A stretch of DNA of 64,000 nt from Streptomyces sp. Mut1. GTDB taxonomy: Bacteria > Actinomycetota > Actinomycetes > Streptomycetales > Streptomycetaceae. Positions 3,059-22,068 of this stretch are shown here, one piece after another. Position numbers and translations under genes: made by a program. How positions within the stretch are numbered: the stretch's first letter is position 1; each line of letters starts with the position of its first letter. The notes under the pieces are model-generated. The model worked only from the letters and a program-made list of their open reading frames with translations. It searched no databases and was not told where the DNA came from. The stretch is taken from NCBI RefSeq assembly GCF_030719295.1, contig NZ_CP120997.1:1178001-1242000 (forward strand), written 5' to 3'.

Positions 3059-3066
3059 CCGTCCTA

Positions 3067-3103
3067 CCGACAGGCCCGGCGCTGATGCCGCCGGGCCTGT
3101 CGG
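3067..3103. terminator. Bidirectional hairpin terminator after hbd
   Basis: A perfect 14-bp inverted repeat: CCGACAGGCCCGGC at 3067-3080 and its complement at 3090-3103, with a 9-nt loop. It lies 8 bp after the hbd stop and faces the 3' end of the leftward biosynthetic operon that finishes at 3235, so it probably serves both convergent units. There is no U-tract, as usual in Streptomyces. Confidence 0.85.
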
Positions 3104-3234
3104 AGCGCGTTGCCCGAGGTCCGACCCATGTGTGGCCCGTAATTCCTCGTCTCCCGCTGCCGGCCCAGTGCAGTGTCACAGCGCTGAGGAGCAGCGGTGT
3201 GGGTGGTCGTGACCGAGATCTCGGGCCTTCTGCG

Positions 3235-3519
3235 TCAGGCCAGGGTGATGACGCTGCTGGCCGCTAGTTCGACGATGACCTCGGCCGTGTCTTCGACTGC
3301 GGTCTGCTCGTCCACCTCGTACTCCGCGGCAAGCAGACGGCCGATCTGGGCGACCGTGTTGCTTCCGTCGATCTGCTTCCAGATGAACGCGGCCGTCTCG
3401 GAGAGCTCGAAGGCCTGGGTGGGGCCGGCGATCATCATCTGCCCCCGGACATTGCGGACCCGGGCATCGAGCCTGCGGGTGGGGACCGATGCGTGGACGT
3501 TCTGCTGAGTGTCGGACAT
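3235..3519 (-). CDS. PqqD-like RiPP recognition element protein
   Basis: A 94-residue protein, the size of a stand-alone PqqD or lasso B1 protein. The segment FELSETAAFIWKQIDGSNTV (residues about 38-56) followed by AQIGRLLAAEYEVDEQTAVEDTAEVI is the typical winged-helix RRE pattern that binds a leader peptide and hands it to the modifying enzyme. Its ATG (3519-3517) overlaps the stop of the upstream nucleotidyltransferase as TGATG, so it is translationally coupled. It is the last gene of the leftward operon. The probable client is the YxxP-leader peptide encoded at 9375-9443, and the partner enzyme is the asparagine-synthetase homologue at 5089-7299. That pairing is inferred from lasso-peptide systems. 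Confidence 0.88.
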   Translation of the reverse strand: MSDTQQNVHASVPTRRLDARVRNVRGQMMIAGPTQAFELSETAAFIWKQIDGSNTVAQIGRLLAAEYEVDEQTAVEDTAEVIVELAASSVITLA

Positions 3520-4307
3520 CAGACGGATACCTCCATGGATACGTGCTGGCAAAGGCGGAGTGCCTCCTCGACCCAGGCGCGGGGCGCCGAAGGGTCGAAC
3601 GATTGCATCGTCTCGATCGCCCAGTACTGGTCGAAGGTGACGATCGTGGGGTCGGCGGTGCGGAAGCGCCGGGCCCGCCACTTCGCGTTCTGGCCGTACT
3701 CGCCTTCGAAGGCGAGCAAGGCGTCCATCGCGTAGCCGAAGGCGATCTTCACGGAGAGCACGGAGCTCTCCACGTCGCCTGCTTCGAGCTGTCCGACGAC
3801 ATCCTGGGTGTAGGTGTCGACGCTGTTCAGGGCTCGGGCGACCATGACCGACCGCAGACCGGAGTCGGCCAGCTGCTTTTGACGGCTCCCGAGCCAGTCC
3901 GCCCCGGTGAGCGGATACGCGTAGGAAAGCCGCTCCAGGAAGTCCAGCTCGTCGGTGGACAGACGGCGACCGACCTCCTGGGTCCCTTCCAGTACCGACC
4001 AGTCGACCTTGGATATCACCTGCTGGATCTGATCGGTGCGCCAGTACTCGATGTCCCAGCGCCGGCCATCGACGTACTTGATCTCCACCGGGAGGGTGTC
4101 CGGCTCCAACGGCACCTGGACGTACACCGCCGTCTCGCTGCGGTAGTCCTCCTCCGTAATGACGTAGATGTCCACGTCGCTCAGTGCGTTTCCCCAGCCG
4201 CGGACCAGTGAGCCACTGATGTAGACGCTGCGGCAGGCGGCCGGGAGAACCCCCAGCTCCTGCAACTGCTCCAGGGAGGCCAGCGAGGCCCCTGGCAGGT
4301 CGGTCAT
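3519..4307 (-). CDS. MNT-type nucleotidyltransferase
   Basis: 262 residues. The N-terminal YISGSLVRGWGNALSDVDIYV (about residues 29-49; GS at 32-33 and SDVD at 43-46) is the nucleotidyltransferase-fold signature GS-x-G-x-SDxD that binds NTP and metal; WDIEYW near residue 84 may provide the third acidic residue. The rest is helical with no recognised domain. The ATG at 4307 has a perfect AAGGAGG site just upstream and overlaps the protease stop (ATGA). Comparable nucleotidyltransferases accompany some lasso-peptide clusters, but the transferred group and acceptor here (peptide, phosphonate or another small molecule) cannot be read from sequence. Confidence 0.78.
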   Translation of the reverse strand: MTDLPGASLASLEQLQELGVLPAACRSVYISGSLVRGWGNALSDVDIYVITEEDYRSETAVYVQVPLEPDTLPVEIKYVDGRRWDIEYWRTDQIQQVISKVDWSVLEGTQEVGRRLSTDELDFLERLSYAYPLTGADWLGSRQKQLADSGLRSVMVARALNSVDTYTQDVVGQLEAGDVESSVLSVKIAFGYAMDALLAFEGEYGQNAKWRARRFRTADPTIVTFDQYWAIETMQSFDPSAPRAWVEEALRLCQHVSMEVSV

Positions 4308-5092
4308 GGTGTTCCTCCTTCGTCGTGCTCCCGCTGGAGCTCGAAGACGATCGATGGCGCGTTGTTGACCACGTGCGCGACCAGCGCAGGCAGGATCGAG
4401 CCGGAAGCCACGGTGAGGCCCAGCAGCACGGCCGCGGCACTCACTTCGGTCACGGTCGCCCGTGCCGAGCCGCGCCGATTGGCGCCAGGTGCGATGTGGT
4501 GCCGGGCGACGAAGGCCGCGGCGGCGAGGAGGCCCAGCGGCCCGGCGGCGACTGCGGGGGCCGCCAGGTACGTCCCTCGGAACACCACCTCCTCGCCGGT
4601 CGGTGAAAGCAGGCTGGTCGTCACTCGGGCCAGCGCCTGCGGCCGAGGGGTCGGCCCGTACAGGAAGGCCAGATCGCCGGAGACCAGCGCGCGAAGGTTC
4701 ATCCCGCCCAGCAGGACGAGCGCGATGCCCGCGGCGGAGCCCAGCGGGTACCACCACCACGCGGGCGAGTCGCCGAACCAGGACGGGCCGGACACGACAG
4801 CGAGGACAGCGGCCCCGACCGGCACCACCATTCCGGCCGAGGTCTCGGCCCAGAAGCTCGGTCCGCTGCGTCGGCGGCGCGGCACCCGCCACGGCAGCCC
4901 GACGAGAACGGTCTCGATCCCTACGGCTACGCCTGCCCACCGGAGGGAACCACCCTGACCCCAGAGTGCTGTCGCGTAGGCGAGCACGCAGGCAGCGGCC
5001 GCGGTTCGCCCGCCGTCCAGCTTCCACGCCTTCCAGTCGAATGTCGGATCCGGACCGGCCTGGGTCATCCGAGTCCGCTCATCGGCCGTCAC
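4304..5092 (-). CDS. CPBP-family intramembrane protease
   Basis: 262 residues with several hydrophobic segments and the Abi/CPBP motifs in order: GEEVVFRG (E167, E168, R172), FVARHHI (H198/H199) and HVVNN (H240, N243/N244). These form the metal-dependent glutamic protease site of the Rce1-like family inside the membrane. It starts with GTG at 5092 overlapping the stop of the asparagine-synthetase gene as GTGA, and its own stop overlaps the next gene. No transglutaminase-like lasso leader peptidase is present in the cluster, so this enzyme is the best candidate for leader removal; a role in self-immunity is the alternative. Both roles are inference. Confidence 0.82.
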   Translation of the reverse strand: MTADERTRMTQAGPDPTFDWKAWKLDGGRTAAAACVLAYATALWGQGGSLRWAGVAVGIETVLVGLPWRVPRRRRSGPSFWAETSAGMVVPVGAAVLAVVSGPSWFGDSPAWWWYPLGSAAGIALVLLGGMNLRALVSGDLAFLYGPTPRPQALARVTTSLLSPTGEEVVFRGTYLAAPAVAAGPLGLLAAAAFVARHHIAPGANRRGSARATVTEVSAAAVLLGLTVASGSILPALVAHVVNNAPSIVFELQREHDEGGTP

Positions 5093-7299
5093 CGTGCCAC
5101 GTCCGCAGGTTCGCCGAGCCGGACCAGCCCGGCGAGTAGGGCCTCGTCGAGCGGCTCCTGGACGTCCTTCAGCGTGCAGTCGACCGCCGCGAGGATCTCC
5201 TTGAGCGACCGAACCCCGTCAACGGCCCGCAGCACGGCCAGCCAGGGCGCCGACTCCTGAGGATCGACCAGGTACTCGATGGCCCCGTCGACCAGGATCA
5301 GCCACCCGTCGTCGAGCGCCGGAGCGTGGGCGATGAGTACCTCGGGAGCGAGGGCCAAAACCCGGTCCGGATCGATGTCGGTACCCGGCGCGGCGCTGAA
5401 CCTGGCAGCGAGCTGGTCCGCCGATGCGTCCCAGTCCTCGACCGGCAGCGCCGTCGGGACGGTGTACGAGTGCTGGACGGGAGGGGCCGGCAGGTCGGTG
5501 GCCATGGTTTCCAGCAGGCCGAGGTTGACCAGCCTGAGCAGGAAGTCGACGTGTGCTGATTCGGAGTCCGCCTCCAGGCGCCGCAGTGTGGCGCGGGCCG
5601 CGTCCGCGGAGATATATGTCCGGGCGCCGGGAGCCGCCAGTGCCTCTTCCAGGAGCGCGTCCCCGTTTTGGGCGAGCATGGAGACCATGGTGGTGAAGGC
5701 ATGGCGGCGGCCCTCCCCGTAGAAGAAGGGGACCTTGGGCCGGTCCGCCAGGACCGGGTCCACCAGATCTGCCACGGCCAGGCGCAGGATGCGCTTGTCG
5801 AGAAGCAGCGCCGGGCGGCGGTGCCGGGGGATGGTCGCGAGCAGATCGACCAGCCGGTGATCGAGGAACGGGACCCGGGTTTCGATGCCGCTGCCGGATG
5901 CGGTGCGGTCCTCGTGCCAGCAGTTGTACTGCTGTAGATCGCGGTATTTGCTGGAGGTGTACGCGGCGTACGGGTCATCGAGTGCGTAGCGGCCATCGGC
6001 GGTCAGGGCGCGATCGGAGACGAGCGGGAGCTCGGAGTGTTCCCACCAGGCAGCGAGTTCCGGACGGTCGATCATTGCGCGGCGCCGGGCCATCTGCCGA
6101 AGGCTCTCCTCATGGTCCGCCCAGTCCCCTCCGCCCAGCCCGACCGAATAGCCGCCGTTGAACTCGTCGCTGCCCTGGCCCACCAGGACGACCTTGAGGT
6201 CCGGGCGGGCGGCGCGGGCATAGCGGTGCAGGCCCGCTTTGTAGAACTGCTCCGGACCGCACAGCGGTGTTTCCAGCAGCCAGAGCAGTTGCTTCCACTC
6301 CTCGGCGGTGGGGATGTCCTGCGTGCCGAAGAGCACCTGGTGGTTGGTGAGTCCCAGCGAGGCGGCTGCCCGGTGGGCGTGTTCGGCGTCGCCGTTGACG
6401 AGGGTGCTCCCGCTGAGGACGGTGAACGTCTGCAACGAGGCCGTGCGTGCGGCTAGTGCGGCGATCGCTACGGAGTCGATCCCGCCGCTCAGGAACAGGC
6501 CCACCTCGGCGTCGGCCGTCATGTGCTCGGCCACCGACGAGGCCAGCAACTCGCGGTAGGCGGCGGCGAACTCGTTGTCGGAGGCGTCCGAGTCGCCACC
6601 CGGGGTCGGGAGTTGCCAGTACCGGTGGGTGCGAGTGCGTCCGTTCGCCAACTCGATCTCCAGGACGGTGCCGGCCGGGACCTGCTCAATGCCCTGGAAC
6701 CAGCTGGTCGGTGGCGCGCCGGAGAGAGTAGGGGTGGCCGAGAGCATCGGATCGGCGAGAGCTGCGGCCCAGTCGATTCCGCGTGGAGTGCCGGGATCGG
6801 AGAAGAGCGCCTTGATCTCGGAGCCGAAGACCATCCGGGTCCCGTCGCGGTGGAGGTAGAGCGGCTTGATACCGAAGCGGTCCCGTCCCAGGAGCAGGGT
6901 GCCGCGGGTGCGGTCCCAGAGGGCGAAGGCGAACATCCCGCGGACCTCAGCCAGGAAGTCCAAGCCGCGGGCCTGGTAGAGGTGCAGCAGCACCTCGCAG
7001 TCGGATCCGGTGCGCGGTCGGACGCCGGGAAGACCTGCCAGTAATTCCCGGTGGTTGTAGATCTCGCCGTTGGCGATCAGCACGATTGAGCCGTCCGGGC
7101 TGGTCAACGGCTGGGCACCGCCGGCTGGGTCGATCACCGACAACCGGCGGAACGCCAGCCCGACCGGGCCGTCCAGCAGGAGCTGTTCGTCGTCGGGCCC
7201 CCGGTGGGCGATGGCAGCGGCCATCTTGAGCAGAGTGCCCCTGGTCTCCGGCGGTAGGGCTGTCCCGCTGGTGCTGATGACACCGGCCAGGCCGCACAT
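5089..7299 (-). CDS. Glutamine-dependent asparagine-synthetase homologue with C-terminal extension
   Basis: 736 residues, roughly 100 longer than most AsnB proteins. It has an intact class II amidotransferase domain (Met-Cys start with nucleophile C2, RLSVID about 52-57, NGEIYNH about 77-83, GSD 98-100) and an ATP-pyrophosphatase synthetase domain (SGGIDS 271-276, GQGSDE about 374-379). The C-terminal tail from about residue 640 (WLILVDGAIEYL, then VRSLKEILAAV and EALLAGLVRLGE) looks like a winged-helix or PqqD-type domain. The family adenylates a carboxylate and makes an amide. Because C2 is intact it should still generate ammonia, unlike typical lasso cyclases. Probable substrate is the cluster peptide; an acceptor amine other than ammonia is possible. 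The ATG is preceded by GGAGAGAGG. Confidence 0.9.
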   Translation of the reverse strand: MCGLAGVISTSGTALPPETRGTLLKMAAAIAHRGPDDEQLLLDGPVGLAFRRLSVIDPAGGAQPLTSPDGSIVLIANGEIYNHRELLAGLPGVRPRTGSDCEVLLHLYQARGLDFLAEVRGMFAFALWDRTRGTLLLGRDRFGIKPLYLHRDGTRMVFGSEIKALFSDPGTPRGIDWAAALADPMLSATPTLSGAPPTSWFQGIEQVPAGTVLEIELANGRTRTHRYWQLPTPGGDSDASDNEFAAAYRELLASSVAEHMTADAEVGLFLSGGIDSVAIAALAARTASLQTFTVLSGSTLVNGDAEHAHRAAASLGLTNHQVLFGTQDIPTAEEWKQLLWLLETPLCGPEQFYKAGLHRYARAARPDLKVVLVGQGSDEFNGGYSVGLGGGDWADHEESLRQMARRRAMIDRPELAAWWEHSELPLVSDRALTADGRYALDDPYAAYTSSKYRDLQQYNCWHEDRTASGSGIETRVPFLDHRLVDLLATIPRHRRPALLLDKRILRLAVADLVDPVLADRPKVPFFYGEGRRHAFTTMVSMLAQNGDALLEEALAAPGARTYISADAARATLRRLEADSESAHVDFLLRLVNLGLLETMATDLPAPPVQHSYTVPTALPVEDWDASADQLAARFSAAPGTDIDPDRVLALAPEVLIAHAPALDDGWLILVDGAIEYLVDPQESAPWLAVLRAVDGVRSLKEILAAVDCTLKDVQEPLDEALLAGLVRLGEPADVAR

Positions 7300-7366
7300 G
7301 ATGATGACCTCTCTCCGAACTTGCTGTGCTGATGCTTTGGGGTCAAACCGGCTTCCCGCGGACGGT

Positions 7367-8653
7367 TCAGGAGGGTCTGGCCGCTTCGGCGTCGGCCCGG
7401 GTGACCGTGCGCAGTGGCGTGAGCCCGGCAGCCAGGAAGACGAGCAGGCCGCCGATCGAGCCGATCACCAGGGCCAGCTTCGGGGAGGCGGCGCTCGCCA
7501 GCGCCCCGCCGGCCAGGGCACCGAGGGTGGCCCCGCTCCAGGCAGTGGTGCGCAGGGCGCTGCGCAGTCGGCCGAGCATTTCGGGCGGGGTGCGGCTCTG
7601 GCGCAGCGAGGTCGCGGTGGTGTTGTACACAACGATGCCCATCCCGGTGAACGTGCCGCCGACTCCGGCCAGCAGCCCGGCAACCCAGCCGTCACCCCAA
7701 GGCAGCAGAAGCCCGCCGAACAGGCAGGCGGTGGGAAAGGCCCACAGGGCAGTGGCGGGGGACCGGTCCGCGAGCCGACCGGTGAGTGCGGCGCCGATCA
7801 CGCCGCCGATTCCGGAGACCGCGAAGACGATACTGACCCCGGTGGTGCCCAGGCCCGCCTCGTGGACCAGGTGCGGGACGAGGACGGCCGTCGTACCGGT
7901 GGCGAAGAAGTTGTAGCTCGCGGAGACGCCGGCCAGAATCAGCAGCAGCTTCTCGCCCTTCAGGAAGCGCAGGCCTTCGAGGATGTCCAGTCGGATCGGG
8001 CGCCGGGAAGTACCGGGCTCCGCAGTGCGGCGGGCCTCGGGTACGGGAACCAGAAGGGCACCCAGCGCGCTGGCGAGATAGGTGACCGCATCGACGGCCA
8101 TCGCATATGGCGCTGTGAGCACCCCGATCAGCACGCTGGCGACGGTCGGGCCGGCGACCTGGGCCACCGAGTCGGTACCGTTCAGGCGGGCGTTGCCCCA
8201 GTTCAGTTGGGTGCGGTCCAGAACGAGCGGGACGAACGCGAAGAGTGCCAGGTCGAAGAACATGGTCAGGGCGGACACCCCGAACGCGACGGCTACGAGC
8301 AGGCCGAGCGAAAGCAGGTCCAAGGCCGCCGCAATGGGGATCAGCGCGACCAGTACGCACCTCAGCAGACTCGCCGCGATCAGGATCGGGCGTCGTCGCC
8401 AGCGGTCGACCCAGGCTCCGGCGTGCAGCCCGAAACCGAGGTAGCAAAACCCCTCCGCGGCGGTCAGCAGGCCGACCTGCCAGGCGGGGGCGTGCAGCAC
8501 GACCACGGCGATCAGGGGTAGCGCGACATGGCTGATCCGGGTGCCGAAGGCGCTCGCGGCCTCGCCTGCCCACAGCCGGTTGAAGTACCGCTTGGCACGC
8601 CGCGACACCTCATCGACGTCGGGTTCGGAACCTTCTTCTGTGGTGGCGGTCAT
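7367..8653 (-). CDS. MFS transporter (probable product exporter)
   Basis: 428 residues with about 12 hydrophobic segments and a cytoplasmic N-terminus. GAWVDRWRRRPILIAASLLR (near residue 90) is the loop 2-3 signature of major facilitator proteins of the DHA3/enterobactin-exporter type, and a second copy, GRLADRSPATALWAF, follows in the C-terminal half. It lies between the kinase-like gene and the asparagine-synthetase gene in the same direction, 67 bp before the latter. The likely role is export of the cluster product or resistance. ATG 8653 has GGAG about 10 nt upstream; a longer frame to 8860 would overlap the preceding gene and is rejected. Confidence 0.88.
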   Translation of the reverse strand: MTATTEEGSEPDVDEVSRRAKRYFNRLWAGEAASAFGTRISHVALPLIAVVVLHAPAWQVGLLTAAEGFCYLGFGLHAGAWVDRWRRRPILIAASLLRCVLVALIPIAAALDLLSLGLLVAVAFGVSALTMFFDLALFAFVPLVLDRTQLNWGNARLNGTDSVAQVAGPTVASVLIGVLTAPYAMAVDAVTYLASALGALLVPVPEARRTAEPGTSRRPIRLDILEGLRFLKGEKLLLILAGVSASYNFFATGTTAVLVPHLVHEAGLGTTGVSIVFAVSGIGGVIGAALTGRLADRSPATALWAFPTACLFGGLLLPWGDGWVAGLLAGVGGTFTGMGIVVYNTTATSLRQSRTPPEMLGRLRSALRTTAWSGATLGALAGGALASAASPKLALVIGSIGGLLVFLAAGLTPLRTVTRADAEAARPS

Positions 8654-8676
8654 GCGTGCGATTCTCCGGAGGGAGG

Positions 8677-9312
8677 CTAGTGGCGGTGGTGTTCGGCCTG
8701 CTCGACGAGGCCGACCAAATCGGCGACGATCCGGGGCACGGGGCGGGTGGAATCGAGGGTCGGCCAGTGGTTGCGTTCTGCCCAGCGGTCCAGCTGATCC
8801 GAGATCGCGCGTTGGTGGGTGAGGAACGAGTCCCTGCTGCAGGCCGGGTCCATCCCGCACTCGTAGGGGACGAGGTCGCCCTGCTTGCGCTGCCAGGCCA
8901 AGGTGAGGTCAAGGCCGAGCCGTACGGTCAGATGTGCCGTCGGAACTCCCGCGACCAGGGCCTCGACCCATTCCGGGTCAAGGCCGTAGGCGATCTCGCC
9001 GGCGGCATGCTTCATCCAGTAGCCGTCAACGACCACGATTTCCCCGGGCTCCTCACGGGCGCCTTCCAACGCCATGGCCATCGACCAGATGAGAAACAGC
9101 AGGCGGGATGTTCCGGGCATGTCGGCGATACAGGTACGAATATCCTTGATGTCATGGCTCAGGAATCGTGCTGCTGGATACCGGGAATCGGCTACGATAT
9201 CCCACCGATCGACCGTGCGGGCCCGGTACCCACGCGCGTTCAACTCGGCGACGAATGCGCGGGTGACGGTCGATTTACCGACCCCGTCGGTGCCAGTGAG
9301 TGCCAGCAGCAC
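8677..9312 (-). CDS. Thymidylate-kinase-like P-loop protein
   Basis: 211 residues from a GTG at 9312, which has AAAGGGGAA six nt upstream. The start MLLALTGTDGVGKSTVTRAF gives a Walker A motif at about residues 7-15, followed by a DRW motif near residue 35 and VVVDGYWMKHA, a Walker B-like strand, as in dTMP kinases. The chromosome normally carries a separate tmk, so this is likely a specialised kinase for a nucleotide or small molecule of the pathway. The open frame extends upstream to 9534, but that stretch runs through the peptide gene, a hairpin and the promoter, so the longer start is not credible. Substrate unknown. Confidence 0.75.
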   Translation of the reverse strand: MLLALTGTDGVGKSTVTRAFVAELNARGYRARTVDRWDIVADSRYPAARFLSHDIKDIRTCIADMPGTSRLLFLIWSMAMALEGAREEPGEIVVVDGYWMKHAAGEIAYGLDPEWVEALVAGVPTAHLTVRLGLDLTLAWQRKQGDLVPYECGMDPACSRDSFLTHQRAISDQLDRWAERNHWPTLDSTRPVPRIVADLVGLVEQAEHHRH

Positions 9313-9334
9313 GGATTCCCCTTTCAGGCGGCGA

Positions 9335-9367
9335 CTGTCGGGTCGCCACGCCTCGGCGACCCGACAG
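9335..9367 (-). terminator. Hairpin between peptide gene and downstream operon (partial terminator)
   Basis: A perfect 13-bp stem, CTGTCGGGTCGCC at 9335-9347 with its complement at 9355-9367 and a 7-nt loop. It begins 7 nt after the stop codon of the 22-codon peptide gene and ends 22 nt before the start of the kinase-like gene. Such hairpins behind RiPP precursor genes often act as leaky terminators or RNA stabilisers that raise precursor over enzyme levels. The structure is seen; the function is inferred. Confidence 0.75.
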
Positions 9368-9374
9368 CCTTGTG

Positions 9375-9443
9375 TCACGCGACGTTCGAGAGAACAGAAC
9401 CGAAGCTGACCTTCTTGACCTGCGGCTTGATGTACTTCTTCAT
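9375..9443 (-). CDS. 22-residue RiPP-type precursor peptide with YxxP leader
   Basis: ATG at 9443 is preceded by GGGGGGAGGTGAAG, one of the best ribosome binding sites in the window, and the frame closes with TGA at 9377-9375. Residues 1-11 are MKKYIKPQVKK and residues 12-22 are VSFGSVLSNVA. Y4-x-x-P7-x-V9 matches the YxxPxL leader motif that PqqD-like B1 proteins recognise in lasso precursors, and F14-G15 falls where such leaders place a conserved Gly/Phe. The peptide has four Lys after the start region and no Asp or Glu, so a lasso-type side-chain isopeptide is impossible and only the C-terminal Ala carboxylate is free for amide chemistry. A promoter lies at 9505-9534 and a hairpin follows. 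Core boundaries are unknown. Confidence 0.82.
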   Translation of the reverse strand: MKKYIKPQVKKVSFGSVLSNVA

Positions 9444-9486
9444 TTTTCTTCACCTCCCCCCCAAGTGGATTCCCCGCTTGATTCAG

Positions 9487-9629
9487 AATGGCGGACAAGT
9501 TGAGATTATCTGCCATCAAATCTGCGGACGTCAATCATTCTTGCAGACCGCCATTGCAGCGCGTCAATAGATTTCATCATTCGACCACATGCGGAGGCGA
9601 ACCCGTTTTCGGGAATGCCAAAATGGCGG
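9487..9629. repeat. Three copies of AATGGCGG around the peptide promoter
   Basis: AATGGCGG occurs at 9487-9494 and 9622-9629 in one orientation and at 9548-9555 in the other, so that one copy overlaps the predicted start region and one sits just upstream of the -35 box. The first copy extends to ATGGCGGAC (9488-9496), which recurs at 18768-18776 in the divergent control region of the phosphonate operon. This could be an operator, but no regulator gene is present inside the cluster and the sequence is short. Confidence 0.4.
9505..9534 (-). promoter_or_regulatory. Near-consensus vegetative promoter of the peptide operon
   Basis: On the minus strand TTGACG (9534-9529), an 18-nt spacer and GATAAT (9510-9505) match the HrdB-type consensus closely. 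Predicted transcription starts near 9498, giving a leader of about 55 nt that ends in the strong ribosome binding site of the peptide gene. The stretch is clearly AT-richer than its surroundings. Confidence 0.8.
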
Positions 9630-9666
9630 GCCGACACCCAGGGCGACGCGAAGGACATATGTGGAT

Positions 9667-12758: not shown

Positions 12759-12850
12759 TGGTCACCCCTCTGCTGCGATAGACGTGTTCCGCTCGGCGGA
12801 GCACACCGGAGTAAGCGGACCGCCCCGTCGACCGGTCCGGTGTCGGGCTA

Positions 12851-14530: not shown

Positions 14531-15684
14531 TTGCCCTCCCGATCGGCTCTCACGTGCTCGGTCCGTACGGCGGTGGTGGTGCCCAGAAGACGGCCCAGCG
14601 CGGCGAGGAAGCCCTCGATGTCCTGCTCGGTCATCCGACCCATCGTGGACAGCCGGAAGAAGTCGCGCGCCAACTGCTCCTGAGCGGCGTAGATCACGAA
14701 GCCCTCGGCGCGCAGGGCCCGGTGGAGTTCCGGGTAGCCGACGCCCTGCGGGAGACGGACGGCGGTCAGACCCAGCGATCTGTGTTCGGGGGGCAGCAGC
14801 AGGCGCAGGCCGAGATCCTCCAAACCCTGCCTGAGCCGCGCGGCGAGCGCCTGGTAGCGCTTCCCGCGGGCGGCCACCCCCTCTGCCAGCATCAGCTCCA
14901 GCGCGGTGTCGAAGGCGTAGAAGGCAGGCACCCCCGGGGTGAAGGCCGGTGACTGGGCGTGCTCCTGGGCGGTGTAGTGCCGGTGGAGGTCCAGCGAGTA
15001 GCTCCGGCGCGGCTCGGGGCCGAGCGCTGCGAAGGCGTCGTGCCGTGCGCAGACGAAGCCCAGGCCGGGCATCCCCTCAAGGTTCTTGTTGGCTGATCCG
15101 GCGACCCAGTCGAGGCCGTCGCCGACGATGTCGAGCGGCTCGGCGCCGACGCTGCTGACCGCGTCAACGATCACCTTCCGGCCGTACCGGTGCGCCACCC
15201 GGGCGACTGCCGCGACGTCGTTCAGCATGCCGGTACTGGTTTCGTGGTGCACCACCGTGATGAATCCGAGCGACGTGTCGGCGGCCAGTGCCGCTTCCAC
15301 GGAAGCGAGGTCGATTGGGACGCCCCAGCCGAGCTCCAGGTGTTGGACCGCGATTTTGTGGATCGCAGCGATGTCGTGCATCCGGCGGCCGTAGTGGCCG
15401 TTGTCGATGGCGAGCACACCGCTGTCCGCCGGAGGGACGGACGCGATCAGGGCCTCGACAGCGGAGGTACCGGACCCCGTCAGAACGACGCTGGTGAACT
15501 CCTCGGTTCCGCCGCACACTTGGGTGATCCGGGTGCGAACGCGGCCCATCAGCTCGGCGAACTCGATCTCTCGGTGGCACAAGTCGGGCCCGCAGAGGGC
15601 GGCGCGGACGCGCTCGTCCGCGAGTACCGGGCCGGGGTTCATGAGTACCAGGCGCCGTGCCGCGGGGCCTGTGGGCGAGGTCAT
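14527..15684 (-). CDS. phnW: 2-aminoethylphosphonate aminotransferase (PhnW/AEPT family)
   Basis: 385 residues, fold-type I PLP aminotransferase. LVLMNPGPVLADERVRAAL near residue 12, CHREIEFAEL, LTGSGTSAVEA, DAVSSVGAEPLDI and the PLP-lysine motif GSANKNLEGMPGLGFV (about 190-205) match 2-aminoethylphosphonate:pyruvate transaminases. In a biosynthetic setting it would convert phosphonoacetaldehyde to 2-aminoethylphosphonate. Its presence in place of the alcohol dehydrogenase used in fosfomycin synthesis points to an amino- rather than a hydroxyphosphonate. It is coupled to the decarboxylase by an ATGA overlap at 15681-15684. Confidence 0.9.
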   Translation of the reverse strand: MTSPTGPAARRLVLMNPGPVLADERVRAALCGPDLCHREIEFAELMGRVRTRITQVCGGTEEFTSVVLTGSGTSAVEALIASVPPADSGVLAIDNGHYGRRMHDIAAIHKIAVQHLELGWGVPIDLASVEAALAADTSLGFITVVHHETSTGMLNDVAAVARVAHRYGRKVIVDAVSSVGAEPLDIVGDGLDWVAGSANKNLEGMPGLGFVCARHDAFAALGPEPRRSYSLDLHRHYTAQEHAQSPAFTPGVPAFYAFDTALELMLAEGVAARGKRYQALAARLRQGLEDLGLRLLLPPEHRSLGLTAVRLPQGVGYPELHRALRAEGFVIYAAQEQLARDFFRLSTMGRMTEQDIEGFLAALGRLLGTTTAVRTEHVRADREGK

Positions 15685-16808
15685 GACGAAACCGCCTGCC
15701 GAAATCTGGACGCCACCTCGGGCGGGGTGAGAGCGGGCCGGCCGAGTGCCGGGTCGGATCCGGGTCGGATGCGAACGCGGATCAGATGCGGGCCCGCCTG
15801 CGCGGCGCAGCGGGTCACCGCGTCGCGCAGCTGCGTGGCCTGGTTCACGTCGGCGGTCGTGCGGTAGCCGCAGGCCTTGGCAACCGCGCAGAAGTCCAGC
15901 CCGCCGGAGACCGTGGGTTGACCGCCGGTGGACTCGTACACGGCGTTGTCGAGCACGATGTGCAGCAGGTTGCCGGGAGCCTGGTGGCCAATGGTGGCCA
16001 TCGCCTCCAGGCGCATCAAGGCCGCGCCGTCGCCGTCCAGCACGACGACCTCCCGGTCGGGGGCGTTCAGGGCGACCCCGAGACCGATACTGGCGGCGCA
16101 TCCCATCGAGCCGACCACGTACAGATTGCCTGGCCGGTCCCTGTCCCGTTCCAGCTCGCGGGCCGTCTTTCCGGTGGTTGCCACGAGCAGCGCGTCCTGG
16201 CCCACCGAGTCGACAGTCAGACCGATCGTCTCGGCCCGCGACATCAGGCGCGGGTCCGACGCCGGAGCTGGCCCCGCCCGGTGCGGCGCGAGGGCTCCCT
16301 TGGGCACGATGAAGGCGTACGGGCTGCCCGTGCGGTCCATGTGCCCGGTGGCTCGGTCGAGTGCCGGCCCCAGCTCGGCCGCATCGGCGGGAAACATCTC
16401 GTGGCCGATCTCCATCGTGGAGAGCAGGTCGGGGGTGATCCGGCCCATCAGCTGGTGCTGGGGTTCGTCCGGGAGGCCGGGTTCGCCGCGCCAGGTCACC
16501 AGCAGGAGCACCGGAAGCCGAAAAGTCTGGCAGAGCGAGGTAAGGGGGTTGACCGCGTTGCCGAGGCCTGAGTTCTGCAGGATGACCACCGGCCGTCGGC
16601 CCGCCAGGCGGGCGCCCGCCGCGATGGCCACCGCCTCTCCCTCGTTGGCCGCGGTGAGGTAACTGTCGGGGTGTTGCGCCTGGAGGACGCTGATCAGCGG
16701 TCCGAGGAAGGAACAGGGAACACCCGCGAACGGGCCGAACCCGGAGTCGAGCATGGTCCGGGCCACGGTGGCACTGTCGAGCGAGCCACGCGTCTTCGTG
16801 GTGCTCAC
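15681..16808 (-). CDS. ppd: Phosphonopyruvate decarboxylase (TPP-dependent)
   Basis: 375 residues, a size typical for Ppd/Fom2 and shorter than general TPP decarboxylases. Features in order: FAGVPCSFLGPLI near residue 28, ANEGEAVAIAAG (catalytic Glu region, about 54-65), NSGLGNAVNPLTSL, and the TPP/Mg motif VVVLDGDGAALMRLEAMATIG with DNAVYESTGGQ downstream. It decarboxylates phosphonopyruvate to phosphonoacetaldehyde, the step that makes C-P bond formation irreversible. It starts with GTG at 16808, overlapping the pepM stop, and is followed directly by the aminotransferase. Confidence 0.93.
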   Translation of the reverse strand: MSTTKTRGSLDSATVARTMLDSGFGPFAGVPCSFLGPLISVLQAQHPDSYLTAANEGEAVAIAAGARLAGRRPVVILQNSGLGNAVNPLTSLCQTFRLPVLLLVTWRGEPGLPDEPQHQLMGRITPDLLSTMEIGHEMFPADAAELGPALDRATGHMDRTGSPYAFIVPKGALAPHRAGPAPASDPRLMSRAETIGLTVDSVGQDALLVATTGKTARELERDRDRPGNLYVVGSMGCAASIGLGVALNAPDREVVVLDGDGAALMRLEAMATIGHQAPGNLLHIVLDNAVYESTGGQPTVSGGLDFCAVAKACGYRTTADVNQATQLRDAVTRCAAQAGPHLIRVRIRPGSDPALGRPALTPPEVASRFRQAVSS

Positions 16809-18427
16809 CGCGTCTGACCGGTGAGCAGCAGCTCGGCCCGCCGCACGTCCTCTTCGTTCCTGAGCTCGGCCCAGCCGGAGGCAATCTCCACGGCGTCGAC
16901 CGTCCAGCCCGCGTTGATCAGGTCGGACAGGAGCACCGCCAGGCCGGGCTCTCCGTCGGCCTCGGCGTGCCGCTTCTCGGCGGCCTCGCGCAGGGCCGCC
17001 CAGCCCTTGCCCGAGAAGGCGGCGATCCCGGTGAACTCGCCGTCACCGGGGCCGGTACCGAATCCGGTGACGCTGTTGCTGCGGGTCCCCTTGAGTCGCC
17101 GGCCCAGCACGGCCCCTGCTGCCATCGTCACCGATGTCCGGCTGTCCCCGGGGTCACCGGACGCGGCGGAGACGTCGATCAGTGCCGCGATGTCGCGCCC
17201 GTCGGCGACGAGTTGGAGCAGCGGCTCCGGGTCGAACAGCAGGTCGGGGGCGACTACGAGGGTATGGCCGTGGAAGTCCGGTGCGGCGCTCAGAACCACC
17301 TCCGCAGTGGCTGGCGCTTCCAGCCCTGGTGTGTGGACCAGGGTGACGCCTGCGGGATGGACGTCCCCGCCGTCGCGGCCGGTGACAACGGTGATGTTGT
17401 CGATGCCGGCGCGCCGGAGGGATCCGCACTGGAGTTCGGTGACGGTGCGGCCGTCGACGCCGGATCCGCCGGGCAGGTCGCTTCCAACGGCCAAAACGGC
17501 TCGCAGGCGACGGCCTGCCCTGCTGAGGAAGCGCTCCTCCGCCTGCTGCAGCGCGGCCATCCCCTGGAGATCGAAGACGGTGGCAAGCTCGGCGATGCGT
17601 GTCTCGATACCGCTGGTGCGGCCATCTCGCAAGATGGCCTCGAATGTCTCGCTCACTGCCGTGATCGACGCCCTCAGACCATGGTTCGCGTAGATCACCA
17701 GCTTCGCACCGGCTGCGGAAAGCTCCTCAGCGGTGATGGTGTGATAAGTGGTGGGGACAACAACGACGGGCAGTCGCTGCTGCCATTGACGCAGGAACTC
17801 CAGGACAGGTTCCGGGGATTCACCTTTCGCGTGGATGAGGACCGCGTCCGCGCCGGCCTCGGCATACGCCTCTGCCCTGCGCAGCGCTTCGTCCAGGCCC
17901 CAGCCGGCCACCAGGGCCTCGACCCGGGCGATCACCATCAGATCCGGTCCCACCTGGGCGCTCTTGGCTGCGGCGATCTTGCCGGCGAACTCGGTGATCG
18001 GTGCCAGCTCCTGGCGGCCGGGTATGAAGCTGTTCATCTTGGGGAACCGCTTGTCCTCGATCGAGACCGCAGCGATACCGGCCGCCTCGTACCGGCGGAC
18101 CATGTGCATGACATTGTTCGCGTTGCCGTAACCGGCGTCGCAGTCGGCGACCACCGGAACGGCCACAGCGGCAGCCATCGACCTCGCCACTTCGAGAAGT
18201 TCGGTCATGGTGAGAATGTCCGCGTCAGGCAGAGCGTGCGAGGCGGACACCTCCAGACCGCTCGACCAGACACCGTCGAACCCGGCTCGCTCGGCGAGGC
18301 GTGCGCCGAGAGCGTTGTGCGCCCCCACGATCCTCACCGGACCGGGACGTTCGAACAGCGCCCGGAGTTGGGCGGCCCCGCCGACCCGGTGCCCCGGGGT
18401 CTGGGCAAGGACGTTTTCGGCACGCAT
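16805..18427 (-). CDS. pepM: PEP phosphomutase fused to a degenerate cytidylyltransferase-like domain (Fom1 architecture)
   Basis: 540 residues. Residues 1-300 form a PEP mutase barrel: GAHNALGARLAERAGFDGVWSSG, DCDAGYG at 95-101 and the diagnostic EDKRFPKMNS at 124-133 that separates true PEP mutases (EDKxxxxxNS) from lyases. Residues about 308-540 resemble a nucleotidyltransferase fold, as in Fom1 of Streptomyces fosfomycin producers, but the usual GxGxR...PK signature is replaced by AVGSDLPGGSGVDGRTVTEL, so catalysis by this half is doubtful. First gene of the leftward phosphonate operon; makes phosphonopyruvate from PEP. Start ATG 18427 has only a weak GGGGG upstream. Confidence 0.93.
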   Translation of the reverse strand: MRAENVLAQTPGHRVGGAAQLRALFERPGPVRIVGAHNALGARLAERAGFDGVWSSGLEVSASHALPDADILTMTELLEVARSMAAAVAVPVVADCDAGYGNANNVMHMVRRYEAAGIAAVSIEDKRFPKMNSFIPGRQELAPITEFAGKIAAAKSAQVGPDLMVIARVEALVAGWGLDEALRRAEAYAEAGADAVLIHAKGESPEPVLEFLRQWQQRLPVVVVPTTYHTITAEELSAAGAKLVIYANHGLRASITAVSETFEAILRDGRTSGIETRIAELATVFDLQGMAALQQAEERFLSRAGRRLRAVLAVGSDLPGGSGVDGRTVTELQCGSLRRAGIDNITVVTGRDGGDVHPAGVTLVHTPGLEAPATAEVVLSAAPDFHGHTLVVAPDLLFDPEPLLQLVADGRDIAALIDVSAASGDPGDSRTSVTMAAGAVLGRRLKGTRSNSVTGFGTGPGDGEFTGIAAFSGKGWAALREAAEKRHAEADGEPGLAVLLSDLINAGWTVDAVEIASGWAELRNEEDVRRAELLLTGQTR

Positions 18428-18889
18428 CGCTGTAGGACCCCCGGGACCTCAGTCAGTCGACGAATCCCGGAGCCGGCGCCCGGGTGGTTTGGAGACTGCC
18501 CCGACGCCATTGTCCTGGGCGAGGTGGGACCGGAGCCTCCGCAGCCGGTGCCACTCTCAGCAGTTAAGCACAGGATTCCGGCCGTACGGCCGGTGATCAG
18601 GACTTGACCGAAAAGCATCCAACTACCCTTGACACGCGGGGGACTTGGCATTCCGGCAGCCCGCGCGGATCACCCCTGAACAGCGATCTGCCGTGGATGC
18701 AATGCGCATGACGGATCACCGTCCGGACGCCCCACCGTGATTGGCTCCATGTGCAGACATGTCCGCGATGGCGGACTCCGAAATGGTGAGACCTACCGGC
18801 GAGATCCAGCCGGTCGCAGCACCAACTGCACGGCCGGGCAAGTGATATGACCGGAGCGGTTGCCGTTTCGGGCCGGTAGCGTGGCCGCC
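18428..18889. promoter_or_regulatory. Divergent control region between pepM operon and pdxH operon
   Basis: A 462-bp gap with no credible gene. It contains several symmetric elements: a 16-bp palindrome at 18578-18593, GATCACC repeats at 18592-18598 (inverted), 18668-18674 and 18714-18720, CATGT-N4-ACATG at 18748-18761 and GTCCGC-N4-GCGGAC at 18761-18776. TAGCGT at 18877-18882, 7 nt before the GTG at 18890, could be the -10 box of a leaderless pdxH transcript. No convincing promoter for pepM was found by eye. Both operons are probably controlled here. Confidence 0.55.
18578..18593. repeat. 16-bp perfect palindrome in the divergent promoter region
   Basis: CCGGCCGTACGGCCGG is fully self-complementary, about 150 bp upstream of the pepM start. 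It may be an operator for a dimeric regulator or simply a GC-rich hairpin in the leader RNA. Confidence 0.45.
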
Positions 18890-19543
18890 GTGAGCGAGAA
18901 GACACGCAACCAGTTCAGGGCGCTCCAGGTCTTCGCGGACCTGGAGCCGTCGGGATTCACCATCGAGGACCTGCCGGCCAATCCGCTGCGGGCCCTGGAG
19001 GAGTGGATCCTCTCGGCAGCCGAGGCCGGGCAGGCTGAGCCCCACGCCATGACCCTGTGCACCGTCGACGCCGACGGGACGCCGTCCAGCCGGGTGCTGC
19101 TCTGCAAGGACATCGACGACGAGCGGCTCTACTTCGCCACCCACTCGGACAGCCGCAAGGGCCAGGAGATCGCCCGGAACCCGCGTGTCGCCGTCCAGTT
19201 CCACTGGCCGACGGTGGGCCGCCAACTGCGCATTGTCGGGGACGCCGAGGCGACCGGGCAAGCCGACAGCCGGCGGGACTTCGCCGAGCGCGGTCGCGGC
19301 TCGCGGCTCTCCGCGCACCTGCACAGGCCCACCCCGCCGGCGGACCGGGACGAGGTCCTGTCCGAGTACGCACGGCTGTCCGCGTCGTACCCCGACGAGG
19401 TGCCCTACTTGCCGAGTTGGACCCTCTACGGCATCCGGCCGAACGAACTGGAGTTCTGGGAGGCCAGCCCGGACCGCATCCACACCCGGGTGATCTATCG
19501 GCGCGAAGCGGGCGGCTGGCAGACCGAGTACCTCTGGCCGTGA
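18890..19543 (+). CDS. Pyridoxamine 5'-phosphate oxidase-like flavoprotein (PdxH family)
   Basis: 217 residues from GTG 18890. The arrangement NPLRALEEWILSA, AMTLCTVDADGTPSSRVLLCKDIDDERLYFATHSDSRKG (FMN-binding split barrel) and C-terminal WTLYGIRPNELEFWEASPDRIHTRVIYR is that of PdxH. In PdxH it makes PLP; inside the cluster it may provide PLP for the aminotransferase or act as a specialised oxidase like PhzG. No ribosome binding site is seen, but TAGCGT 7 nt upstream would give a leaderless mRNA. It is the first gene of a rightward three-gene operon and its TGA overlaps the sulfatase start. Confidence 0.85.
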   Translation: MSEKTRNQFRALQVFADLEPSGFTIEDLPANPLRALEEWILSAAEAGQAEPHAMTLCTVDADGTPSSRVLLCKDIDDERLYFATHSDSRKGQEIARNPRVAVQFHWPTVGRQLRIVGDAEATGQADSRRDFAERGRGSRLSAHLHRPTPPADRDEVLSEYARLSASYPDEVPYLPSWTLYGIRPNELEFWEASPDRIHTRVIYRREAGGWQTEYLWP

Positions 19544-21063
19544 CTGACCGGACCGCAACGCCACACCGCCGCAACGTCCTGCTGATCGTCGCGGACCAGC
19601 TCCGCGCAGACGCGTTGGGCTGCTACGGCGCCCTCCACGCACGAACCCCGCACCTGGACGCGCTGGCCGCCAGAGGTACGCGCTTCGAGCGGCACTACTC
19701 CGTGACCGCGCCGTGCGGGCCCGCCCGCGCGTCCCTGCTCACCGGTGTCTACCAGTCGATCCACCGCGTGGTAAGCAACCGTACCCGCGCCGACGACACG
19801 CGGCCGAACCTGGCGACCGCACTTGCCCCGGCCGGCATTGCTTCCCATGTCGTCGGCTACACCGACACCGTAGCCGAGGGGACATCGGGCGACGCCGAGA
19901 CCGTCCCCAGGGGATTCAACTGGCATACCAGGTTCAACCTCAACCGTGCAGGGCTGCGCTCATGGCTCGACCAACTGGCCTCGCACGGGCAGCTGGTGCC
20001 CGACGACCCGATGGACGTGCTGCTCCCCGCGCCGGGCAGCCGCAACCTCGCCCGTTACCCGGCCGAGCTCAGCGACACCGCCTTCGTTGCCGACCGCACC
20101 ATTGCCTGCATGACCGGACTGCAGGACCAACCCTGGCTCATCCTGGCGACGTTCCTGCGCCCGCATCCACCCTGGGTGGCGCCGTTCCCCTACGATCGGC
20201 TGCACGACCCGGCCGATATGGCGGCCCCTCTCCGGGCAGCGAGCCCGGCGGAGGAGGGCAGACGCCATCCCTTCCTGCGCCACTGGGTCGGGCGTGACGT
20301 ACCGGACACCGCTCCCGCAGACCTGACCGCGGAAGCCATCGCCGCGCACCGGGCGACCTACTTCGGGCTGGTGAGCGAGGTGGACCATCACGTCGGACGG
20401 ATCCTCGCCGCCCTGGAGAACCTCGGCCGAGCGCACGACACTCTCGTCGTGGTCACCGCCGACCACGGCGACACACTCGGCGATCACTGGAGCCTTGGGA
20501 CGGGAGGCTTCCGGGAGACCGCCTACCGGGTGCCCCTGATTGTCGCCGCCCCCGACCGACGAGCCGCCGCGGCAGTGACCGCTCCCACAGAATCGGTGGA
20601 CGTCGCGCCGACCGTACTCGACTGGGCTCGGGCGCCGGCACTGCCGTGGAGCAGCGGGCACTCGCTTCTTCCGCTCCTGTCCGACCCGGCGGAACGCACG
20701 CCATGGCCCCGATCCGAGATCGTCCACGAATTCGATTTCCGCGACCCGGTGGACCACATTCCGGAACGGGTGATGAGCCTCAGCCCACAGGAGTGCAACC
20801 TCGCGGTCCTGCGCGGACCGCGCTTCACCTACGTCCACTTTCCGGCACAACGGCCCCTGCTTTTCGATCAGTTGATGGACCCGGGGGAATGCCGGAACCT
20901 CGCCGAACTACCGCAGTACGGGCAGGTGCTGGCCGACTGCGCCCGCCGCCTGCTGGACCATCGGATGCGGCACGTCGACCAGGCGCGTACAGATCTTGTC
21001 GCCACGGCCGCACCGGCCACGGGCAATGGCCCCGCCCCGAGTCCTCCCAGGAGAGTCACATGA
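19540..21063 (+). CDS. Sulfatase / phosphonate monoester hydrolase family enzyme
   Basis: 507 residues of the alkaline-phosphatase superfamily. LLIVADQLRADALGCYG at about 15-30 provides metal ligands, the CGPAR box at 59-63 fits the CxPxR motif in which Cys becomes formylglycine, and VTADHGDTLGDH at about 305-316 supplies further ligands. The family includes arylsulfatases and phosphonate monoester hydrolases. No signal peptide is visible, so it should act in the cytoplasm. In this context a role in cleaving a nucleotide (CMP) ester of the phosphonate, the job of FomD in fosfomycin synthesis, is an attractive inference. GTG 19540 overlaps the PdxH stop. Confidence 0.87.
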   Translation: MTDRTATPHRRNVLLIVADQLRADALGCYGALHARTPHLDALAARGTRFERHYSVTAPCGPARASLLTGVYQSIHRVVSNRTRADDTRPNLATALAPAGIASHVVGYTDTVAEGTSGDAETVPRGFNWHTRFNLNRAGLRSWLDQLASHGQLVPDDPMDVLLPAPGSRNLARYPAELSDTAFVADRTIACMTGLQDQPWLILATFLRPHPPWVAPFPYDRLHDPADMAAPLRAASPAEEGRRHPFLRHWVGRDVPDTAPADLTAEAIAAHRATYFGLVSEVDHHVGRILAALENLGRAHDTLVVVTADHGDTLGDHWSLGTGGFRETAYRVPLIVAAPDRRAAAAVTAPTESVDVAPTVLDWARAPALPWSSGHSLLPLLSDPAERTPWPRSEIVHEFDFRDPVDHIPERVMSLSPQECNLAVLRGPRFTYVHFPAQRPLLFDQLMDPGECRNLAELPQYGQVLADCARRLLDHRMRHVDQARTDLVATAAPATGNGPAPSPPRRVT

Positions 21064-21908
21064 CCCCGGCCACCGCTGACCCGTCGGACCTGCCGAATTT
21101 CCTGATCCTCAAAATCGGCGGGGGGCTGTTCTCCGTCAAGAGTCGCGACCACGACATCGACCACGACGCCGTCGCTGGTTACGTCAGGCAGGTCGCGGAC
21201 CTGGCCGCGGCGGCGCCCGGCCGAATGGTGCTCATTTCGGGTGGAGGGTCCTACGGCCATGGAGCGGTGCGTCATCTGGATCCGGAGGATCCATGGGCAG
21301 CCCTCCCCCTCACCGGTGCCAACGCCGAGTTGCGCTGGATCTGGACCACAGCCCTCCAGCGGGCCGGAGCACGGGCATTCCCCGTCCAACTGGCAGCCGC
21401 CGCCGTGCTGGAGGAGGGCGGTGCGGTCGTCGGTGTCGGCAGCCTCCAGCGCCTCCTGGCCACCGGATCGCTGCCCGTACTCACCGGCGACTGCCTTCCC
21501 CACCCTGACGGCTCCTTGCGCGTAATCGGCAGCGACCACGTGCCGTCCGCGCTGCTCGGACTGTCGGCGGGCTCGGTCCGGGTCGCCATGCTCACCGACG
21601 TGGACGGTGTGCTCGACGACGGGCGGACCATCCCGTGGATCGATCCACGCGCGACCGGGCCCGCTCGCGAGGCCCTGCGGGTTGCACCCGACTGGGACAC
21701 CACCGGGGCGATGGCCGGCAAGCTCGACGCCGTCCTCGACTGTGCCCGGCGCGGTGCCGAGTGCCTGATCCTGCGCGGTGACCCCGATCAGCCCGATCTG
21801 CGGCACCTGCTCCGCCCGGTGTCCGAATGGCCCGCACAGCTCCGGCACACCCGGATCGCCCCCAGCGAGCCGACGACCGGGCAACGGGTGGACGCAGTGC
21901 CCGCTTGA
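21060..21908 (+). CDS. Amino-acid-kinase-fold small-molecule kinase, FomA / isopentenyl-phosphate-kinase-like
   Basis: 282 residues. LILKIGGGLFS at 15-25, LISGGGSYGHGAV at 58-70 (the His of the GGGSxGH loop is typical of isopentenyl phosphate kinase and FomA), LTDVDGVLD at 178-186 and TTGAMAGKLDAVL near 214-226 are all in place. FomA phosphorylates fosfomycin on its phosphonate and confers producer resistance, so a self-protection or pathway kinase role for a phosphonate is likely. Bacteria of this type use the MEP pathway, which makes an isoprenoid role less likely. ATG 21060 overlaps the sulfatase stop (ATGA). A hairpin terminator follows. Confidence 0.85.
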   Translation: MTPATADPSDLPNFLILKIGGGLFSVKSRDHDIDHDAVAGYVRQVADLAAAAPGRMVLISGGGSYGHGAVRHLDPEDPWAALPLTGANAELRWIWTTALQRAGARAFPVQLAAAAVLEEGGAVVGVGSLQRLLATGSLPVLTGDCLPHPDGSLRVIGSDHVPSALLGLSAGSVRVAMLTDVDGVLDDGRTIPWIDPRATGPAREALRVAPDWDTTGAMAGKLDAVLDCARRGAECLILRGDPDQPDLRHLLRPVSEWPAQLRHTRIAPSEPTTGQRVDAVPA

Positions 21909-22021
21909 CGACGCCGCGCCGTCTTCGGTGGACGAGTCCAGCGTGACCCCGCTTGATCGGTAAGGGCTGCGCGGTGGCGTGGAGGCTGGGGCCGCCCACC
22001 CGTACCACCGACACGGCGCAA

Positions 22022-22060
22022 CGGTACGGGCGAGGGGCGTGCCGTCCCTCGCCCGTACCG
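22022..22060. terminator. Bidirectional hairpin terminator at the right end of the cluster
   Basis: A perfect 15-bp inverted repeat, CGGTACGGGCGAGGG at 22022-22036 and its complement at 22046-22060, loop 9 nt. It separates the rightward kinase operon (end 21908) from the leftward Nudix gene (end 22069). Confidence 0.88.
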
Positions 22061-22068
22061 GGTGCGGC

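Follow-up and report, generated by a model that had tools for sequence, protein, structure and literature searches.

The region considered here lies in a 64,000-nucleotide stretch of the Streptomyces sp. Mut1 genome (NZ_CP120997.1, positions 1,178,001-1,242,000; hereafter the window) and comprises 16 genes arranged in three runs within a block of about 19 kb (window 3056..22012; Table 1). The first minus-strand run (18427-9667) encodes a phosphoenolpyruvate (PEP) mutase (PepM), a phosphonopyruvate decarboxylase (Ppd), a 2-aminoethylphosphonate (AEP) aminotransferase, a B12 radical S-adenosylmethionine (SAM) protein, a flavin adenine dinucleotide (FAD) protein, and a nucleoside triphosphate (NTP) transferase. 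The second (9443-3235) encodes a 22-residue peptide, a thymidylate-kinase-like (TMK-like) protein, an MFS protein, a homologue of the asparagine synthetase AsnB, a CPBP protease, a nucleotidyltransferase, and a PqqD protein, and the plus-strand run (18890-21908) encodes a PdxH-like protein, a phosphonate-monoester-hydrolase-like protein, and a FomA-like kinase. A preceding sequence-only reading had proposed a hybrid of a fosfomycin-like phosphonate pathway and a lasso-like peptide pathway, packed into three units with start-stop overlaps. The genes it named on the phosphonate side (PepM, Ppd, AEP aminotransferase, B12 radical SAM protein, and FomA-like kinase) are located where it placed them and have profile or PDB matches, those on the peptide side (a YxxP peptide, PqqD, AsnB homologue, CPBP protease, and MFS protein) are all present, and the tight packing is borne out by overlaps of 1 or 4 bases at nine adjacent gene pairs. 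To this inventory, we add the nucleotidyltransferase, the TMK-like protein, the NTP transferase, the FAD protein, the PdxH-like oxidase, and the sulfatase-fold hydrolase.

The phosphonate and peptide halves form one unit, as had been proposed, because the block is missing as a whole from one genome, stands between other flanks in a second, and contains an interleaved kinase gene, and because the peptide module and PepM recur together in other architectures. In G155, a genome given the label of the same species by the tool used, window 1-3055 and 22013-26214 are neighbours on one contig (C79; 98% identity), a gap of 5 bases separating them (other alignments of the same junction overlap by 8 bases), so that the ~19-kb block is missing there in its entirety. 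In Streptomyces sp. AC1-42W (locus L009), window 3232-18622 is matched at 91.6% and 18865-21921 at 89.7% identity, and the flanking sequence compared (2.6 kb and 0.4 kb at the two ends) shows no match to the first 30 kb of the window. A possible third member is Streptomyces sp. NPDC012769, with homologues of the radical SAM protein (83%), the nucleotidyltransferase (66%), and the AsnB homologue (63%); judged by contig name and length (2,007,853 bases), these matches presumably lie on one contig. The TMK-like gene sits between the peptide and MFS genes, its nearest relatives among the loci belong to phosphonate clusters without the peptide half, and its product shares only 27-33% identity with relatives in peptide loci. 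Given the missing block, the other flanks, and the interleaved kinase, we reject two independent neighbouring clusters.

The union of PepM with the peptide module was also sought in 20 distinct further loci carrying AsnB homologues (14-20 kb each). PepM with the EDKX5NS motif occurs together with Ppd in three of these (L039, L054, and L055), in two architectures. In L039, the pair has as its neighbour a protein that looks, on visual inspection, like an iron alcohol dehydrogenase. L054 and L055 closely resemble each other: both carry, on one strand, a gene series for the peptide, AsnB, a methyltransferase, PepM, Ppd, and a phosphoesterase, with start-stop overlaps running from the methyltransferase to the phosphoesterase. 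A PepM-like match of L062 near L033 was partial (34%), had no EDKX5NS, and was excluded from the count, and PF13714 was set aside as a gauge of PepM in AsnB genomes because it includes isocitrate-lyase relatives and matches 19 of the 20. FemAB/GNAT-like proteins, for a possible aminoacyl-transfer step, are encoded in the PepM-type cluster L054 (L054:18032-19333) and in L038 (L038:16108-17220), the PepM-less sister of L039.

On the phosphonate side, the PEP mutase motif EDKX5NS (PMC6697681, available part) is present in the window PepM, as EDKRFPKMNS. The FomA-like kinase reaches 221.8 bits with the FomA equivalog model, well below its cut-off of 550, and the name P-methyltransferase attached to NF038361 is a family label, a C-methyltransferase role appearing equally possible from sequence. 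The radical SAM family was aligned over 19 sequences (the window and 18 of 90 homologues among the matches listed), and 15 of its loci, with flanks of up to 10 kb, were taken from a one-genome-per-species collection. PepM was matched in ten of them (partially, at 28%, in L008), nine with EDKX5NS, L008 being the one without it. One genome of 392 in a genus draw and one of 199 genomes of relatives carried the radical SAM family, the own genome each time, and no further hybrids were found in either. P0088 (795 residues) is a radical SAM protein naturally fused to a MobA-like NTP-transferase domain, which fits nucleotidyl activation ahead of methylation, as in fosfomycin; such activation is common in phosphonate pathways according to the available part of PMC6697681. 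A homologue of the FAD protein (44%) is encoded at L033:1506-3470, in a peptide-module locus where no radical SAM homologue was found.

The sequence-only reading had regarded homologous clusters that consistently have only one half as evidence against a union. Within flanks of up to 10 kb, AsnB and the peptide were found in one radical SAM locus of 15, namely L009, and not in the other 14, and PepM was not found in the 14-20 kb covered at 17 of the 20 further AsnB loci; the halves are joined in the remaining three and in L009. By that reading's own measure, the halves are separable in evolution. A loose peptide scan of the radical SAM loci likewise returned L009 only, apart from a 28-residue open reading frame (ORF) in L012, which starts MSIYQKP, has no ribosome-binding site and no AsnB (tblastn), and was taken as chance.

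The window peptide MKKYIKPQVKKVSFGSVLSNVA comprises 22 residues in total, contains no Asp or Glu, and is preceded by a strong ribosome-binding site. Judging by its conservation, it is not a chance ORF, because it is identical in L009, with one silent base change, and has homologues of 22 residues at 19 of the 20 further AsnB loci, recovered with a Y/F/W-x-K/R-P motif and no length requirement. In 18 loci, 151-242 bases separate the start from the downstream asnB; in L058, from a genome of another family, asnB follows on the same strand after 6 kb; at L059, the most distant locus (46%), the motif search found no peptide. In nine of the 19 loci, upstream in-frame starts exist (giving ORFs of 25 to 36 residues), and the start adopted was the ATG that follows the ribosome-binding site. 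Across the resulting 21 rows (window, L009, and 19 further loci, with identical peptides in window/L009 and in L035/L053), M1, Y4, K6, and P7 do not vary, position 12 holds V in 20 rows and I in the other, and the peptide ends in A (8), R (6), V (5), or K (2). Asp and Glu are absent from the window peptide and eight others, and from all 21 rows after position 13. The sequences differ pairwise by 0.31-0.36 within the ORF versus 0.62-0.69 in the flanks, and no third-position excess was seen in a coding test of the ORF; the lower divergence shows constraint on the stretch, not coding by itself, and the coding case is strengthened by the kept start, stop, length, and ribosome-binding site. A carrier of 22 residues is so small that gene callers would likely miss its gene.

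Homologues of the AsnB protein (E <= 1e-150) were detected in 10 of 121 genus genomes, 11 of 391 order genomes (with two candidates scored in each), and 3 of 296 class genomes (with three candidates scored in each), the own genome being counted in each draw and two genomes being seen twice. All 22 AsnB genes (window plus loci) retain the MCG start, the SGGxDS ATP motif (SGGIDS in the window), and Glu-x4-Tyr within a kept D-E-F-x-G-G-Y stretch (Glu379 and Tyr384 in the window). In a wider set, MCG is present in 47 of 54 sequences; the seven non-MCG sequences were omitted from alignment A3, whose 'invariant C2' therefore reflects the choice of rows. Glu379 and Tyr384 are as far apart in sequence as Glu363 and Tyr368 of PesC, to which they were matched by this spacing rather than by superposition, and the available part of PMC13060819 describes the Glu-Tyr pair for PesC and four other asparagine-synthetase-like (AS-like) enzymes. 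The structural model of the window enzyme (mean predicted local distance difference test score, pLDDT, 88.1) has the TsnB9 hydroxyamidotransferase and E. coli AsnB as its nearest structures. Profile comparison links its C-terminal ~110 residues to the PqqD family (probability 87%, E 3.9e-6 for a single pair, with 0.1-0.6% for three control pieces of the same alignment and two fused-PqqD proteins omitted), and in the model they form four strands and then three helices, which we take to be the fold of a recognition element (RRE) of ribosomally synthesized and post-translationally modified peptides (RiPPs). A further PqqD domain is fused to two AsnB relatives, P0160 and P0191.

The nucleotidyltransferase, modelled with AlphaFold2 (AF2; pLDDT 93.9), has 3c18 as its best Foldseek match, along with ANT(4'') 6p01/1kny (E 2e-7 to 9e-7, TM 0.5-0.6); the model suggests an aminoglycoside adenylyltransferase fold, and the protein could be a tailoring or self-protection enzyme. 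Homologues occur in 17 of the 20 further AsnB loci, and PqqD in 15. Because the neighbours vary among loci, the 22-residue peptide, AsnB, the nucleotidyltransferase, and PqqD can be described, on comparative grounds, as a separable, movable module. An AurF-like diiron oxygenase is encoded in 18 of the 20 (the L030 protein, L030:13047-14051, matches Pfam AurF at E 7.5e-24) and may oxidise nitrogen installed by AsnB; the AurF-like proteins of L031-L034 carry MCG(I/T)VG(L/M)F.GCSA at or near the N-terminus, resembling the AsnB glutaminase start. A related pair of proteins of ~200-235 residues is found in L031, L032, L034, L035, L037, L049, L051, L052, and L053, the tested copy (L031:12654-13337) having no Pfam match.

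Table 1. Features of the cassette, with window coordinates, strand, and the basis of each assignment
Feature	Position	Strand	Basis
Whole cassette	3056..22012	none	missing as one block in same-species genome G155
PqqD-like peptide-binding protein (RRE)	3235..3519	-	PF05402 E 2.6e-15, 56.9 bits vs cut-off 23.4
Nucleotidyltransferase, antibiotic-adenylyltransferase fold, GS...SDVD motif	3519..4307	-	AF2 and Foldseek
CPBP (Rce1-like) intramembrane protease, candidate releasing protease	4304..5092	-	PF02517 E 1.2e-7
Asparagine-synthetase-like enzyme (AsnB homologue), C-terminal PqqD-like domain ~628-736	5089..7299	-	motifs, profile, model
MFS exporter (predicted)	7367..8653	-	PF07690 E 5e-27
TMK-like protein	8677..9312	-	relatives in phosphonate clusters: 52% L005, 42% L015, L017
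22-residue peptide MKKYIKPQVKKVSFGSVLSNVA, putative carrier/handle, ribosome-binding site GGGGGGAGGTG upstream	9375..9443	-	ORF and homologues
Promoter-like site, 10/12 match	9505..9534	-	consensus match only, upstream of peptide gene
MobA-like NTP transferase (Sden_1164 family), predicted phosphonate nucleotidylation	9667..10485	-	NF038362 412 bits, cut-off 300
FAD/NAD(P)-binding oxidoreductase (NAD_binding_9), large FAD protein	10482..12758	-	PF13454 E 1e-26
B12-binding radical SAM methyltransferase (Sden_1168 family)	12851..14530	-	NF038361 1151.4 bits, cut-off 575
AEP aminotransferase	14527..15684	-	TIGR03301 349.3 bits, just below cut-off 360.8
Phosphonopyruvate decarboxylase (Ppd)	15681..16808	-	TIGR03297 425.6 bits, cut-off 312.5
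PEP mutase (PepM), extra C-terminal domain	16805..18427	-	PF13714 E 3e-60; PDB 5unc E 5e-142; EDKRFPKMNS
PdxH/PhzG-like FMN oxidase	18890..19543	+	profile matches
Sulfatase-fold hydrolase, near phosphonate monoester hydrolases	19540..21063	+	PDB 2vqr, 4upk, 2w8s E 5e-88 to 3e-90
FomA-like kinase, candidate self-protection or pathway kinase	21060..21908	+	PDB 3d40 FomA E 6e-62

A promoter scan returned two sites versus 0.8 expected, one of them, a weak one, above the peptide gene, and a terminator scan returned a number of sites at chance level. Adjoining the cassette (22069-28041) are genes for a NUDIX hydrolase and an NsdA-type regulator, followed by two phenylalanyl-tRNA synthetase genes.

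We propose, with about even confidence, that the 22-mer acts as a carrier or handle: the AsnB-like enzyme would activate the carboxylate at its C-terminus and couple this to the amine of an aminophosphonate. PepM, Ppd, and the aminotransferase, whose family assignments were tested, would convert PEP via phosphonopyruvate and phosphonoacetaldehyde to AEP. By analogy with fosfomycin, the NTP transferase would nucleotidylate the phosphonate, the B12 radical SAM enzyme would methylate it, and the phosphonate-monoester-hydrolase-like protein would remove the nucleotide. PqqD and the PqqD-like tail of AsnB may hold the peptide through the invariant Y-x-K-P, following the precedent of RREs, while AsnB would adenylate its C-terminal carboxylate, which, as the window peptide lacks Asp and Glu, is the sole carboxylate available to an AsnB-type enzyme. 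In the weakest step of the scheme, the ANT-fold nucleotidyltransferase, the FAD protein, and the kinases might tailor the tethered or free molecule, and the CPBP protease might release the product for export by the MFS protein. The absence of Asp and Glu and the fixed length suggest a carrier or handle joined to an amine, and a reusable carrier is preferred over a product core because the peptide has 22 residues in all 21 loci, several of which have quite different neighbours. Taken as a whole, the wider reading is more tentative and, in our view, somewhat doubtful: an AsnB-like ligase would load a PqqD-read carrier of 22 residues by a C-terminal amide, with neither tRNA nor thioester, in a system plugged into several unrelated pathways, including three differently built phosphonate clusters, and would here yield a peptide-tethered aminophosphonate.

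Several observations weigh against this reading. Cys2 is often lost in AsnB-fold enzymes that take other amines as substrates, and the window homologue retains it; its intact glutaminase points to ammonia, not an aminophosphonate, as the nucleophile. The phosphonate half stands without the peptide half in 14 of the 15 radical SAM loci, so the peptide is not needed for the core chemistry, and L038 has the peptide cluster with no PepM or Ppd in its own 20 kb or in the adjoining 20 kb on each side. Five of the 20 further AsnB loci gave no PqqD match and three gave no nucleotidyltransferase match, and CPBP occurs in only three, and thus is no general releasing protease. No AurF match was found in the window, which may therefore be an atypical member of the group, and the length of 22 residues depends in nine loci on the choice of ATG.

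A Trojan-horse product, a short peptide-phosphonate in which the C-terminal end of the 22-mer (...NVA in the window) would stay on the aminophosphonate until target cells import and then cleave it, is unlikely. The restriction of the C-terminal residue to A, R, V, or K in the 21 rows would suit it, as would the encoded protease and exporter, and Ala, Arg, or Val residues occur in the known phosphonate antibiotics bialaphos, argolaphos, and rhizocticin. However, the length is fixed although the neighbours differ between loci, and the last residue drifts between A and V or K and R in alike loci (L031/L032/L052; L030/L048), suggesting an enzyme preference rather than a product-defining residue. 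We regard as quite improbable that AsnB only amidates the peptide C-terminus (or makes a nitrile of it) with ammonia from Gln, the peptide and the phosphonate being separate, co-inherited agents. The MCG glutaminase start (22/22 AsnB genes; 47/54 in the wider set), the occurrence of the two halves apart, and the precedents of TsrC, ScdTA, and PesC (PMC13060819, available part) favour such an amidation, whereas the phosphonate-type kinase within the peptide operon, the single cassette, and the placement of peptide, AsnB, and PepM in one gene run in L054/L055 argue against it. That the 22-residue ORF serves asnB as a regulatory upstream reading frame, rather than encoding a substrate, would agree with its close spacing in 18 loci, but is very improbable given the two genes that intervene before asnB in the window and L009, the 6-kb distance in L058, and an invariant part of the Y-x-K-P motif type bound by RREs, with PqqD in 15 of the 20 loci. 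A true lasso peptide cluster next to a phosphonate cluster is hardly credible: the Y-x-x-P motif, PqqD, and AsnB homologue are present, but the 22-residue precursor has no core and no Asp or Glu (none past position 13 in the 21 rows), no lasso-type, transglutaminase-type protease is found among the 16 proteins, and the lasso cyclase model NF033535 reaches 176 bits against a cut-off of 525, so that the earlier term 'lasso-like' does not hold.

If the carrier reading is true, it would add a further amide-carrier system to PEARL peptides and amino-group carrier proteins, and would give a testable role to some RiPP-linked AS-like enzymes, of which about 300 uncharacterised candidates are counted in the available part of PMC13060819. 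The 22-residue M-x-x-Y-x-K-P peptide upstream of asnB provides a search handle that finds clusters, including those of cryptic phosphonates, which would be broken up or wrongly labelled if only lasso or PepM models were used for mining. The same peptide kit beside two differently built phosphonate gene sets hints at a way of making small molecules for which the literature searched gave no description.

Among known systems, the pearlins TglA and TmoA are carrier peptides loaded by PEARL enzymes (PMC9303977, available part). They resemble the window system in the short ribosomal peptide, the C-terminal amide-borne molecule (predicted here), and the RRE protein, B12 radical SAM protein, protease, and exporter; they differ in that no PEARL (LanB-type, tRNA-dependent) match was found among the 16 window proteins by Pfam and NCBIfam, and that the loader here would be an AsnB homologue, the carrier only 22 residues long, and the cargo pathway that of a phosphonate. 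PesC (a nitrile synthetase), TsrC, and ScdTA are AS-like enzymes acting on peptide C-termini (PMC13060819, as far as available), with which the window enzyme shares the AS fold, the Cys2 glutaminase, the Glu-Tyr pair (by spacing), and the predicted action on a C-terminal carboxylate. Unlike them, it has a C-terminal PqqD-like domain and is accompanied by a separate PqqD, an ANT-fold nucleotidyltransferase, and a PepM pathway, and its 22-mer comes with no MNIO match among the 16 proteins. W/Y/LxxP motifs are bound by PqqD-like RREs (PMC12710340, available part), and lasso clusters share the YxxP motif, a PqqD-type B1 protein, and an AsnB homologue with the window, which lacks their core, acceptor Asp/Glu, and B2 protease and has a CPBP protease instead. 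Two Shewanella loci of the Sden_116x type (L015 and L017) have ten genes in common with the window phosphonate set (PepM, Ppd, FAD protein, NTP transferase, aminotransferase, kinase, TMK-like protein, radical SAM protein, PdxH-like protein, and sulfatase). In place of the peptide module, they contain a phosphopantetheine carrier protein, a beta-lactamase-like hydrolase, and a GNAT protein (L015:13191-15468, and L017); no AsnB, PqqD, or peptide match was found in them, the nucleotidyltransferase match is weak (21%), and the carrier protein is possibly a different carrier for the same pathway. The fosfomycin pathway includes methylation by a B12 radical SAM enzyme and differs from the window, where no epoxidase was matched among the 16 proteins; nucleotidyl activation is a further likeness (PMC6697681, available part). 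In the one open-access library searched, which lacks most subscription papers, no description of the 22-residue AsnB-linked peptide family or of its union with PepM was found. Pearlin carriers, AS-like enzymes acting on peptide C-termini, and W/Y/LxxP-RRE binding are already in print.

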